Below, piece by piece: positions 18,548 to 22,856 of a stretch of 32,988 nt of DNA. Position 1 is the first letter of the stretch, and every line of letters begins with the position of its first letter. The DNA is taken from NCBI GenBank assembly GCA_035531755.1, contig DATKSK010000051.1, positions 1 to 32,988 of the forward strand, read 5' to 3'. The notes beneath the pieces were generated by a model. It ran no database searches, was not told where the DNA came from, and was given only the letters and a program-made list of their open reading frames with translations. Source of the stretch: Acidimicrobiales bacterium (GTDB lineage Bacteria > Actinomycetota > Acidimicrobiia > Acidimicrobiales > UBA8190). Both the position numbers and the translations under genes were made by a program.

Positions 18548-20962
18548 GTGCCCGAGTCGCTCCTGGCCGGGCTCCGCGTCCTCGACCTCGCCGGAGAGCC
18601 CGCGGCCATGACCGGCCGCATCCTCGCCGACCTCGGCGCCGAGGTCGTCAAGCTCGAGCCCCCCGGGGGCGACCCGCTGCGGGCGGTGCCGCCCCTCGGC
18701 CCCGACGGCACGTCGCTTCGCTTCGCGGCGTGGAACGCCGGCAAGTCCTGCGGGGAGGTGACCGGGCCCGACGACCCGGTGCTCGTCGCCCTGCTCGCCG
18801 AGGCCCAGGTGGTGCTCACCACTCCGGGGTGGCCGGGGGCCCTGGAGGTCGACCCGGGGGGCGCCCCGGACCTGGTGTGGGTGCAGGTGACGCCCTTCGG
18901 TGCCGACGGGCCCCGCGCCCGGTGGCGGGCGAGCGACCTCGGCGTCATGGCCTCGACGGGGAACATGTACTGCACGGGCGACCCCGACCGGGCGCCGGTG
19001 CGGTGCACCGAGCCCACGGCCTGGGCCCATGTCGGGCCCGAGGCGGTCGTGGCCACGCTCAGCGCGCTGGCGTCGGGCCGGCCCCAGGTCGTGGACGTCT
19101 CCGCCCAGGAGGCGGTGATGATCGCCTCGATGGGCCACGTCGGCCGCTTCCCGCGCACCAAGATGCGCGGCAAGCGCTCGGGGGCGAGCGTGGGCATCAC
19201 CCGAGAGATCTGGCCGTGCCAAGACGGGTTCGTGTCCTTCGGCCTGCGCGGCGGCAAGGCGCGCGTGGCCAACATGCAGACCATCACGCGGCTCGTCGAC
19301 GGCGACGGCCTGGCCACACCCGCGCTGACCGACCGCGACTGGACGACCTACGACCACAACCGGGTGAGCCGCGAGGAGCTCGATGCCATCGCCGCGCCGG
19401 TGGCCGCCTACTTCCTGCGCCACACGATGGCCGAGCTCTACGAGATCGCCTGCGAGACCAACCTGATGCTGGCGCCGGCCAACTCGCCGCGCGAGCTGAT
19501 CGAGAGCCGCCAGCTGGCCTCGCGCGACTTCTTCTGCGACGTGGCGCCCGCCGCCCACTTCCCCCGCTCCTTCGTGCGCGTCACCAGCCCCGGCGACGCC
19601 GTGGCGACCCCCGGGCCGCGCGGGCCGGCACGCGCCGCCGATCCGGCGTGGATCCGGGAGCGGTCGGGCATGGACGGCGACGCGCCGGCCCCCCCGGCGG
19701 CGGGGCGGGCGGCCGCTACCAGGCCGGCGGCGCGCTCGACGGCGGGCCCCGGGCCGGCCGCGGCGTGGGCGGGCACGGCGGTGCTCGAGTTCGGCACGGG
19801 GGCGGCCGGGCCCATCGGGGTGCGCTACTTCGCCGAGAACGGCGCCACCGTGGTGCGCGTGGAGTCGCGCTCGCGCCCCGACTTCCTGCGCACCTACGGC
19901 ATGGGGCCCGGCAACCCGTGCGGCCTCGAGGGGTCGGACATGTTCGACGCCCTCAACGTGGGCAAGCTCGGCGTGACCCTGAACCTGAAGCATCCCGAGG
20001 GCGTGGCCCTGGCCCGGCGCCTGGTGCACTGGGCCGACGCCGTGGCGGAGAACTTCGCCCCCCGGGCCATGCGCAGCTTCGGGCTCGACTACGGCACCAT
20101 GGCGGCCCAGAAGCCCGACCTCGTCATGGTGAGCTCGTGCCTGCAGGGCCAGACGGGGCCGCACAAGGACTACCCCGGCTTCGGCGGCCAGGGCTCCGCC
20201 CTCGGCGGCTACAACCTGCTCACGGGGTGGCCCGACCGCGAGCCGGTGGGCCCCTACGGGACCATCACCGACTCGCTCGCCCCGCGCTTCGTGGCCAGCG
20301 CCTTGGCGGCCGGCCTCCTCTACCGGCGGCGCACGGGGCGCGGTGTGCACCTCGACGTGAGCCAGGTCGAGGCGGCGGTGTACTCGCTCACCCCGTGGGT
20401 GCTCGACTACGACGTGAACGGCCGCACCGGGTCGCGCCAGGGCAACCGCTCCACGCGCGCCGTGCCCCACGGTGCCTTTGCGTGCGCCGGCGAGGACCGT
20501 TGGGTGGCCGTGGCCGCCTGGGACGACGACGACTGGGGGCGCCTGGCGCGGGCCATCGGCGTCGACGACGCCGTGGCGGCGCGCCTGGCCACCCTCGGGG
20601 CCCGGCAGGCCTCGGTGGACGAGGTCGAAGGGCTGGTGGCGGCGTGGACGGCCCCGCAGCGGGCCGAGGACGTGGCCGACACCTTGCAGGCACTCGGCAT
20701 CGAGGCGGTGCCGGTGGCCGACCTCGGCGACGCCTCGGCCGACCCGCAGCTGCACCATCGGGGCCACTTCGTCACCCTGGCCCACCCCTGCATGGGCGAG
20801 TGCGGCTACGAACGCAACGGCTTCCGCCTCAGCGACGCCACCGCCGGCTACGAGCGCACCAGCCCCACGCTGGGGGAGCACAACGAGTACGTGCTGGGCG
20901 AGATCCTGGGACTCGGCGCCGCCGAGCGCCGGCGGCTCGCCGACGACGGCGTGCTGGACTGA
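18548..20962 (+). CDS. Double-domain CaiB/BaiF family III CoA transferase
   Basis: 804 residues, about twice the usual 400, made of two family III CoA-transferase domains joined by an Ala/Pro-rich linker (about 375-405). Domain 1 (1-370) starts LAGLRVLDLAGEPAAM and domain 2 (about 410-804) AGTAVLEFGTGAAGP. The catalytic Asp that forms the acyl-anhydride with substrate is D575 (TITDSLAP) in domain 2; the matching position in domain 1 is Ala160 (TAWAHVGP), so domain 1 is probably inactive. The family normally makes interlocked dimers; a fused pair gives an asymmetric one. It moves CoA between acids without ATP, so it could recycle CoA from a product to the incoming acid. GTG 18548 lies 19 nt after the thiolase stop; it ends the operon. 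Confidence 0.9.
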   Translation: MPESLLAGLRVLDLAGEPAAMTGRILADLGAEVVKLEPPGGDPLRAVPPLGPDGTSLRFAAWNAGKSCGEVTGPDDPVLVALLAEAQVVLTTPGWPGALEVDPGGAPDLVWVQVTPFGADGPRARWRASDLGVMASTGNMYCTGDPDRAPVRCTEPTAWAHVGPEAVVATLSALASGRPQVVDVSAQEAVMIASMGHVGRFPRTKMRGKRSGASVGITREIWPCQDGFVSFGLRGGKARVANMQTITRLVDGDGLATPALTDRDWTTYDHNRVSREELDAIAAPVAAYFLRHTMAELYEIACETNLMLAPANSPRELIESRQLASRDFFCDVAPAAHFPRSFVRVTSPGDAVATPGPRGPARAADPAWIRERSGMDGDAPAPPAAGRAAATRPAARSTAGPGPAAAWAGTAVLEFGTGAAGPIGVRYFAENGATVVRVESRSRPDFLRTYGMGPGNPCGLEGSDMFDALNVGKLGVTLNLKHPEGVALARRLVHWADAVAENFAPRAMRSFGLDYGTMAAQKPDLVMVSSCLQGQTGPHKDYPGFGGQGSALGGYNLLTGWPDREPVGPYGTITDSLAPRFVASALAAGLLYRRRTGRGVHLDVSQVEAAVYSLTPWVLDYDVNGRTGSRQGNRSTRAVPHGAFACAGEDRWVAVAAWDDDDWGRLARAIGVDDAVAARLATLGARQASVDEVEGLVAAWTAPQRAEDVADTLQALGIEAVPVADLGDASADPQLHHRGHFVTLAHPCMGECGYERNGFRLSDATAGYERTSPTLGEHNEYVLGEILGLGAAERRRLADDGVLD

Positions 20963-20998
20963 CAAGCCGGCCGGCGGGCATCGCCCGGCTCTCGGGTG

Positions 20999-21700
20999 TC
21001 ACCGGCCGGTGACCAGTGCCTCCAGCCGGCCGAGCCGGTCGATGATGGCGTCGAGCTTGGCGCTGTCCCGCGCGCCCGCGACCCCCGTGCCGACACCGTG
21101 GACGAGACCGGCCAGGGCGGCGGCCACCGTCCGGCGGGCCACGACGGGCCCGACGCCGGCGCGCCGGAGTGCCCTGCCACCGGCGCCGTGGGGCTGGTCG
21201 ACCACGGCCAGGAGGAGGTGCTCGCAGCCCACGTAGTTGTGCCCCATCCGACCGGCGATCTCCTGGGTTCCCCGCATGGCGTTGGTGGCGGGGGCGTCCA
21301 GGCGGTTCACCGACCGGTCGCCCGACCGGGCCTGGGCCGCATGCTCGAGCTCCACGCGGACCGCGGGGACGTCGATCCCCATCACCTCGAGGACGTGGAC
21401 GGCGAGGTTCTGCCCTTCGTCGATGACACCCCACAGCAGGTGCTCCGTACCGACAGTGCCCCCCTCCCCGGCGACGGCGGCGGCCCGGGTCAGCGCGTCG
21501 GCCAGCGGCGGCGTCGACGGCAGGGCCAGGTGCAGGAAGGGAGGGACGTCGGCACGGGCTGCCCTGGGCTCCTCCCGGAGCGCGGTGACCCGCTGGAGGG
21601 CCTGGACGAGCGCGTGCTGGCACACCGCGGAGACCGGGAGATGGGCGTCCTTCACGGCCTCGGCGAGGGCGTCGGGGAGGTAGACGTTGATCTTCGGCAT
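20999..21700 (-). CDS. Ribbon-helix-helix / double Clp-N domain protein
   Basis: 233 residues. Residues 1-40 (KINVYLPDALAEAVKDAH, then LPVSAVCQHALVQAL) form a CopG/Arc-type ribbon-helix-helix DNA-binding domain. Two Clp N-terminal repeats follow: about 63-120 (VGTEHLLWGVI) and 138-197 (VGCEHLLLAVV). The rest is a coiled-coil-like tail (DAIIDRLGRLEALV). No AAA+ domain is present, so it is not a Clp ATPase; it may bind DNA while its Clp-N domains capture a peptide, a Clp partner or a small molecule. ATG 21700 has no strong ribosome-binding site. The 139-bp upstream region has three short direct repeats that may be its own operator. Its neighbours are all catabolic genes, so it may be a local or stress regulator. 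Confidence 0.85.
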   Translation of the reverse strand: MPKINVYLPDALAEAVKDAHLPVSAVCQHALVQALQRVTALREEPRAARADVPPFLHLALPSTPPLADALTRAAAVAGEGGTVGTEHLLWGVIDEGQNLAVHVLEVMGIDVPAVRVELEHAAQARSGDRSVNRLDAPATNAMRGTQEIAGRMGHNYVGCEHLLLAVVDQPHGAGGRALRRAGVGPVVARRTVAAALAGLVHGVGTGVAGARDSAKLDAIIDRLGRLEALVTGR

Positions 21701-21750
21701 GCCGCTCCGGGGTTGCTCAGGCGTGGGGGTACATTGGGGTTATACCGCAT

Positions 21751-21776
21751 AGCAGGTGTAGCAGGTGAGCAGGGTG
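21751..21776. repeat. Three short direct repeats (AGCAGGTG) upstream of RHH-ClpN gene
   Basis: AGCAGGTGT, AGCAGGTG and AGCAGGGTG follow one another at 21751, 21760 and 21768. They lie 51-76 bp upstream of the start, beside an AT-rich patch (GGTTATACC at 21738-21746) that could hold the promoter. RHH proteins often bind such short tandem sites, so autoregulation is a reasonable guess. Confidence 0.5.
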
Positions 21777-21839
21777 GCGGTACACCCGCCACCAGGCGGT
21801 CACACGCCCACGAGCCCGAGGCGCGGGATGCGAGGACCC

Positions 21840-22856
21840 TCAGCTCCCCCCGGCCAGGAGGAGGAGGCCACGCACGCCTCCCAGCGCCCGGAGCAGGTCG
21901 TTCAGGTGCGTGCACGAGGCGACGCCGGTGAGGGTCTCGGGCACCGCCGCGGCCAGCGTGGCCACGGCCGTGCCCACCAGCGCGCCCACGGTGTCGGCCG
22001 CGGCGGGACACTCGGGGAAGGGCAGGACCCGGGGCTCGGCCTCCACCCAGCCGAGCACCCCGTCGACCCCGCCGGCGCGCACGGCGTACTCGTGCAGCAC
22101 CGCCTCGCCGCCCCCGTCCTCTCCCACGGTGTCGCGGAACATCGCCCAGATGCCGAACTCGCCGCCGGGGCCGGCGGTGACGTCGATGCACCGCCGGCGG
22201 CGCATCCAGTCGAGGCCCAGCGGGGCGAGCTCGTGCCAGGCGTGGGGGTCCGCGCCGGGCGACCCCGGTTCGGGCACCGGCACGGGCGGGCAGTCCTGCA
22301 TGGGCACGCCCTCGCCGGCCACCACGCCCCGGACGGCGGCGCCGCCGGCACGCCAGCCCGAGCACAGGTCGGTCATGTGGTCCAGCGCGCCCGGCGGCAT
22401 CAGGTTGGCGGGGTGGTGCCCCTCGCGCCGGGCCAGGCGCATCCACGCATAGCCCGAGATCAGCGCGGCGGCGGGCATGTCGTCGAGCACCTGGCGCAGC
22501 AGGGACCCCGCCTCGTCCGGGGGCACGACCTCGTCGAGATGGCGCCGGAACCCCCCGCCGGCGCGTGCCCCCACCAGATCCTGGGCCCACGGCGCCCCGG
22601 GGGTGGTGGTGAGCGACGTCAGGCACCGCGCCGTGTCGAAGCCGGCGCGCACGCGCGCCTCGGCCAGGACCGTCACGTCGTCGGGCCCGGCGGCCCCGGT
22701 GCGCAGGTCTCGGGCGGCACCCTCCATGGCCAGGGGCGAGCTCCACTCGCCGCGCCGGCCCACGTCGACGTGCATCGTCCGCCGCACCGACCCGGCGGGC
22801 CGCGCCGGCACGCCGGGCAGCGGGTCGCGCAGCACCACGGGTGTGCCCTCGGTCAT
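21840..22856 (-). CDS. DUF2889 family protein
   Basis: 338 residues. It matches my memory of DUF2889: a TMHVDVGR-type N-terminal strand, a RDLRTG and VLAEARVRAGFD region, and a C-terminal CTHLNDLLRAL motif in which Cys/His are conserved. The middle contains an EFGIWAMFRDTVG segment. The function is unknown; DUF2889 genes occur beside aromatic/acyl-CoA catabolic genes in other Actinobacteria and Proteobacteria. No signal peptide or membrane segment is seen, so it is probably cytoplasmic. ATG 22856 is preceded by a -10-like TAGCGT with a 6-nt gap (leaderless), and palindrome site 5 lies 19 bp before that box, so it is likely in the same regulon as the enzymes. Confidence 0.65.
   Translation of the reverse strand: MTEGTPVVLRDPLPGVPARPAGSVRRTMHVDVGRRGEWSSPLAMEGAARDLRTGAAGPDDVTVLAEARVRAGFDTARCLTSLTTTPGAPWAQDLVGARAGGGFRRHLDEVVPPDEAGSLLRQVLDDMPAAALISGYAWMRLARREGHHPANLMPPGALDHMTDLCSGWRAGGAAVRGVVAGEGVPMQDCPPVPVPEPGSPGADPHAWHELAPLGLDWMRRRRCIDVTAGPGGEFGIWAMFRDTVGEDGGGEAVLHEYAVRAGGVDGVLGWVEAEPRVLPFPECPAAADTVGALVGTAVATLAAAVPETLTGVASCTHLNDLLRALGGVRGLLLLAGGS

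Follow-up and report, generated by a model that had tools for sequence, protein, structure and literature searches.

A ribbon-helix-helix–Clp-N fusion family: a proposed second class of Clp-N autorepressor among Actinomycetota

Actinomycetes in general make peptides that target ClpC1. The closest described system to the one analyzed here is mycobacterial ClpC2 (Rv2667), which, according to excerpts of PMC10030653, represses its own gene, binds cyclomarin A (a product of Streptomyces) through its Clp_N part, is freed from DNA by this compound, and when in surplus protects ClpC1 as a cyclomarin sponge; it is heat-responsive as well. In M. tuberculosis, three ClpC1-binding peptides bind ClpC2 and only the cyclomarin type induces it (excerpts of PMC12913811), so the sponge role may not generalize. 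The "ClpC2" that appears in excerpts of PMC9765437 is a full Streptomyces Clp-ATPase, i.e., another protein. In trifunctional PutA (PMC5293562), an autogenous repressor, a ribbon-helix-helix (RHH) domain is fused to a ligand-handling enzyme that represses its own genes.

We analyzed a window of 32,988 nucleotides (contig DATKSK010000051.1 of the Acidimicrobiales assembly GCA_035531755.1; "the window" is this whole stretch), in which one gene joins a putative RHH domain to two Clp_N repeats. Its features are as follows:

20999..21700, minus strand: coding sequence of the RHH–Clp-N protein, 233 aa (ORF list, two Pfam Clp_N stretches, AF2 model)
21572..21700, minus strand: residues 1-43, read as an RHH DNA-binding domain (profile matches to 9kkd and VapB26; CcdA in 51/51 members)
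21326..21532, minus strand: Clp_N repeat 1, residues about 57-125 (model match to the ClpC N-domain; residue table)
21101..21307, minus strand: Clp_N repeat 2, residues about 132-200, containing GHNYVGCEHLLL (best Pfam stretch 146-195; residue table)
21008..21073, minus strand: C-terminal helix, residues about 210-231 (AF2 model)
21724..21745, minus strand: predicted operator, GTATAACCCC-AATG-TACCCCCA (conserved in family upstreams)
21750..21767, plus strand: two tandem copies of TAGCAGGTG, the repeats of the original prediction (present in 1/84 upstreams, not conserved)

The gene is a single intact frame of 233 codons in the ORF list, and Pfam Clp_N (PF02861) matches its product over two stretches with an E-value of 5.6e-24 (84.5 bits; curated cut-off 20.7); the single-chain AF2 model has a mean pLDDT of 86.2. 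No AAA+ part is present in the protein, and the ClpC (contig C54) and ClpB (contig C56) of this genome, named from their sequences, lie elsewhere. By sequence and by model, residues 1-43 look like an RHH domain. A PDB search with a profile built on residues 1-46 returned the CopG-family RHH structure 9kkd (E 2.4e-4) and VapB26 (E 4.3e-4), and the RHH family CcdA of Pfam matched the window protein weakly (E 0.015, below the curated cut-off) and all 51 aligned family proteins at up to E 0.1. In the model, residues 1-9 are free of helix and helices span residues 10-18 and 23-43, fitting an RHH domain; strand pairing is not visible in this single chain, and Foldseek with the 46-residue RHH model alone gave one match, too weak to be informative (E 5.5). 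The original description of the product as an RHH domain fused to tandem Clp-N repeats without an ATPase is thus borne out by the Clp_N match, the RHH profiles and helices, and the lack of an AAA+ part in the protein. Neighboring genes (a DUF2889 gene at 21840-22856 on the minus strand, a two-part CoA-transferase at 18548-20962 on the plus strand, a thiolase, and an aldehyde dehydrogenase) give no functional clue. The CoA-transferase is an 804-aa protein that holds two CoA-transferase family III stretches within one chain.

In plan, the protein resembles ClpC2: both are small, with two Clp_N repeats, no ATPase, and an N-terminal part that dimerizes in ClpC2 and is predicted to do so in RHH–Clp-N, and both genes have operator repeats, predicted ones in RHH–Clp-N, near their own start codons. 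They differ in that ClpC2 dimerizes via a four-helix N-terminal domain, with DNA contact proposed for its Clp_N part (excerpts of PMC10030653), whereas the N terminus of RHH–Clp-N is RHH-like; in the operator, which is CGTCAAC-n5-GTTGACG for ClpC2 and TAACCCC repeats for RHH–Clp-N; and in the cyclomarin-binding Phe pair of ClpC2 (F96/F172, taken as ClpC1 F2/F80), where the window protein has F and L. By analogy, RHH–Clp-N may work like ClpC2. It shares with RHH antitoxin-type autorepressors (CcdA, VapB, CopG, RelB) an RHH domain by sequence and an autoregulation predicted to work via repeated half-sites, but lacks a conserved toxin partner gene in the 74 loci compared and ends in Clp_N instead of a toxin-binding tail. 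PutA, likewise an RHH fusion, is a proline oxidation enzyme, while the partner in RHH–Clp-N is a protease receptor domain. With the ClpC N-terminal domain the protein shares the fold, and its family mostly keeps the Phe80 and Glu106 positions; unlike ClpC, it has no AAA+ rings, and several pocket positions are changed.

The RHH part matched in 17 of 148 genomes sampled from the same order, with the fusion in 3 (own genome included), and in 7 of 396 genomes sampled from the phylum, with the fusion in 2, namely G286 and the window's genome. Scanning named genomes confirmed at least 171 relatives, the best 80 of which were analyzed as named loci; their translations (about L070-L076 aside) begin with the RHH part and continue into Clp_N repeats, except for the early-ending frame of L045. 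Hosts among the matches listed include Streptosporangiaceae, Thermomonosporaceae, Micromonosporaceae, Pseudonocardiaceae, Streptomycetaceae, and Actinospicaceae. Residue statistics were taken over 81 proteins (77 of the 80 named, L008, L009, L025, and the window protein; L045, for its early end, and L065 and L082, for unknown residues, are omitted), and the upstream comparison over 84 genes (the 80 named loci, best of at least 171, plus L008, L009, L025, and the window). No conserved neighbor or operon, clp genes included, was found in the 74 usable loci of the 80 (largest cluster 13/74; six loci in which the ORF filter missed the gene were dropped), so the product itself is likely the effector. 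Searches with the N terminus gave 221 pattern matches and no relatives in viral contigs, plasmids gave no match at E 1e-8, and four phage records matched in the Clp_N part only. A Clp_N protein is carried by the mycobacteriophages Myrna (gp251; L153, 1378-2085) and Phabba, where record labels call it an ATP protease or Clp family member; it is possibly a phage decoy of ClpC. The literature searched, in part as excerpts, describes no RHH–Clp-N fusion, and M. smegmatis ClpC3 (excerpts of PMC10864484 and PMC10914731) stands outside the comparison.

With the family upstreams set side by side, TAACCCC/GGGGTTA recurs just before the start codons. At least one exact half-site occurs in 83 of the 84 upstream 200-bp stretches, against a background of 0.0028 per 200 bp over the 4313 control windows that the named loci supplied, and tight pairs (two half-sites at a preferred spacing, no more than one of the 14 bases mismatched) occur in 62/84 upstreams and in 0/4313 control windows; these upstream counts are inflated and non-independent because many of the species are closely related. 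The dominant pair spacings are inverted +10 and direct +11, the strict pair rule is failed by 22 of the 84, and the sole upstream without an exact half-site (L056) has a one-mismatch palindrome, GTACCCCCAATGGGGGTA. As a positive control, the same comparison recovered the published ClpC2 operator in 9/9 ClpC2-type genes, and the ClpC2-type operator GTCAAC-n5-GTTGAC is found in none of the 84 RHH–Clp-N upstreams. The window's own pair, TAACCCC-AATG-TACCCCC at 21725-21742 (TAACCCC at 21736-21742 and TACCCCC at 21725-21731, 11 bp apart), lies in a predicted operator that overlaps TATAAC, which could be a -10 element; a sigma-70 promoter scan of 20900-21900 found nothing at the consensus used. Judged from sequence, the TAACCCC site near the gene's own promoter very probably mediates self-repression.

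A different element had been put forward as the binding site, namely three AGCAGGTG-type repeats with 8-9 bp spacing. What is present are two exact copies of TAGCAGGTG (21750-21758 and 21759-21767) with a 9-bp period, and the supposed third copy at 21768-21775, AGCAGGGT, has two mismatches. Within one mismatch, AGCAGGTG occurs 61 times in the window, and exact copies stand upstream of one family gene of the 84, the window's own; we therefore rejected these repeats as the operator. The conserved element at 21724-21745 was overlooked, though it falls inside the interval originally marked and is nearer the start codon than the repeats.

RHH proteins read DNA through three alternating residues of their strand. 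In the window protein this strand is PKINVYLPD, with K3, N5, and Y7, and the same three residues are found in all 81 full-length RHH–Clp-N proteins, as is Cys27 of the RHH helix. The only non-Clp_N protein found with a K/N/Y strand, L031 (gene start 1614, minus strand, genome G286), joins an RHH domain with K3/N5/Y7 to a GGDEF diguanylate cyclase domain; TATAACCCC lies just upstream of its start, and from its sequence it looks like a second fusion under the same operator. Exact TAACCCC/GGGGTTA is absent from the last 60 bp before all 19 genes for RHH proteins with other strands (K-S-Y, R-Q-Y, R-N-Y). By eye, K-S-Y genes have GGGGGT-type repeats near their starts, R-Q-Y genes a GTATA/TAGGCGT-type motif, and R-N-Y genes an GTGTGTATA-type motif. 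Across the stand-alone RHH proteins of this kind (L010-L032, with L029 and L030 left out), start-proximal motifs vary with residues 3, 5, and 7, possibly representing a natural RHH recognition code. Of all the evidence, this match between strand and operator speaks most strongly for binding of the TAACCCC site by the RHH part.

Genome-wide, the paired site is rare and mostly marks the family's own promoter. With at most one mismatch, the inverted form TAACCCCnnnGGGGTTA has a single place in each of 10 genomes out of 20 searched, and 8 of these places are the own promoter; the control, this pattern read backwards, matched in 5 of 20. The direct form TAACCCCnnnnTAACCCC, again with at most one mismatch in 20 genomes, gave 23 places, of which 13 are at the own promoter and 10 elsewhere (5 of these in genome G538), while the longer direct form TATAACCCCnnTATAACCCC with at most two mismatches gave six places in 15 genomes, all of them coinciding or overlapping with sites already assigned to the own gene. 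The 22-bp form (at most one mismatch) occurs at three places of the window's genome, the own gene, C18:59319-59340 (L204), and C11:36022-36043 (L206), against none for the control; similarity beyond the 22 bp is modest, so the three copies do not belong to long repeats. At C18 the site is 5' of a gene for a 3-hydroxyacyl-CoA dehydrogenase, at C11 it is flanked by a phosphatase-like gene and a DUF4395 gene, and no clp or chaperone gene is near either in the 3-kb loci. On this sequence evidence the window's protein may have up to two further targets.

The Clp_N half was compared with ClpC N-domain structures. Residues 57-202 of the window model match them with Z of about 18-22, including 22.1 to 3fh2, 19.4 to ClpC1 with cyclomarin (3wdc), and 19.1 to ClpC2 (8ad9); in the C-terminal helix that follows, R222 and E227 are invariant in A2. 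Across the family, Glu106 is kept in 81/81 proteins and the second-repeat Phe (ClpC position 80) in 71/81. At position 2, where ClpC has Phe, 65/81 carry Leu, and 74/81 carry Ala in place of Lys85, which the ClpC of the window's genome has, so the ligand preference of the family probably differs from that of ClpC1. A second-repeat Cys (GCEH, where ClpC has GTEH) is present in 79/81, the genome's own ClpC having Thr. The window copy is the most diverged examined, with the longest tree branch (1.83): its pocket has F at position 2, Leu at Phe80, and Ala at Thr6, and the first helix of repeat 1 is degenerate, while GCEHLLL with Glu106 is kept. Its ligand site may thus be altered or lost.

In a 53-row Clp_N tree, from which the ClpC rows L168 and L169 and also L159 were omitted, a branch with support 100/99 sets the 28 RHH rows apart (the root is arbitrary). 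Since these rows separate from those of ClpC and ClpC2, RHH–Clp-N is not ClpC2 by descent. Twenty further Clp_N loci (L184-L203) were taken from 16 RHH–Clp-N genomes; 9 are ClpC2-type, each from a different genome, and L188 is itself an RHH–Clp-N gene, so the two types coexist in at least nine genomes. All nine ClpC2-type genes carry the published ClpC2 operator (at most 3 mismatches), and TAACCCC is absent from the 110 bp compared for each. Beside ClpC and ClpB, small proteins made of Clp_N only are numerous in actinomycete genomes.

These sequences are best read as showing that Actinomycetota have, in the RHH–Clp-N proteins, a second class of Clp-N autorepressor, one built on an RHH domain. 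Comparative data back the architecture, a conserved operator that is nearly unique in most genomes, and the fit of this operator to the RHH strand. We propose that a dimeric RHH repressor would occupy the TAACCCC repeats over its own promoter and keep its own level low, repression by binding being suggested by the position of the sites near or over the promoter, and that the C-terminal half would be a decoy of the ClpC receptor domain. A ClpC-type ligand, such as a ClpC-directed peptide antibiotic or an unfolded or tagged protein, would fill Clp_N and cause the protein to leave its operator; the freed promoter would then make the protein abundant enough to compete with ClpC for the ligand. Both the release by ligand and the sponge are modeled on ClpC2. 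By this analogy we consider ligand-controlled release from the operator probable, and the full sense-and-sponge model slightly better than an even prospect for the family and lower for the window's copy. A transcription factor with a Clp-N sensor, as the original prediction had suggested, is the best fit to the comparative evidence and to the ClpC2 precedent (excerpts of PMC10030653).

Other explanations use the same conserved features. Cys27 (81/81) and the second-repeat Cys (79/81, Thr in the genome's ClpC) could together form a thiol switch that senses redox or electrophile stress and releases the autorepressor from DNA; we consider this quite unlikely, since Cys27 also occurs in the RHH–GGDEF protein L031 and is therefore not tied to Clp_N, and since conserved Cys residues may be structural. 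The protein could instead be a proteostasis regulator whose Clp_N part senses unfolded protein and whose RHH domain controls other genes in addition to its own, as the two extra 22-bp sites in the window's genome, one 5' of the 3-hydroxyacyl-CoA dehydrogenase gene, and the heat response of ClpC2 (excerpts of PMC10030653) would suggest. This reading is unlikely: the own gene is the main or sole place of the paired site in the majority of the genomes searched, and the loci around the C18 and C11 sites are without clp or chaperone genes. RHH antitoxins are frequent protease substrates, a precedent for conditional degradation, in which Clp_N would deliver the regulator to ClpCP for destruction under stress. 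Such a fate is very unlikely, however, as Clp_N is itself a receptor domain, no ClpC-docking motif was identified, and no clp gene is a conserved neighbor in the 74 usable loci of 80; the earlier suggestion that the regulator is handed to the Clp protease found no evidence here. Because Clp_N is a homologue of the ClpC receptor domain, a decoy or sensor is more natural than an adaptor.

For the window copy alone, a decaying relic that retains operator binding and has lost ligand binding by Clp_N is conceivable, in keeping with its longest branch, the altered residues in both repeats, and the absence of the fusion from the three other same-family genomes of the order sample (no match in G045 and G123, an 86-aa RHH frame only in G090). 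Against this stand the intact frame, the confident model (mean pLDDT 86.2), and the preserved GCEHLLL with Glu106 and operator, and we regard decay as rather unlikely. Returning to the autorepressor reading, we raise tentatively, and with some doubt, that a ClpC decoy wired to its own promoter evolved twice in actinomycetes, with a ClpC2-type head in one case and an RHH head in the other, and that the two coexist in one cell as orthogonal sensor-sponges with non-overlapping operators for different ClpC-directed toxins or substrates, possibly serving self-protection in antibiotic-producing lineages.

Drugs against tuberculosis are aimed at ClpC1, and ClpC2 is known to buffer one class of ClpC1 inhibitors. 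If the present reading is true, a second class of Clp-N sensor in actinomycetes, with another DNA-binding head, would mean that such decoys evolve repeatedly. The family would then offer ready-made biosensors for ClpC-binding natural products, each made of one promoter and one protein, and a natural set of RHH strand–operator pairs for work on DNA recognition by RHH proteins.
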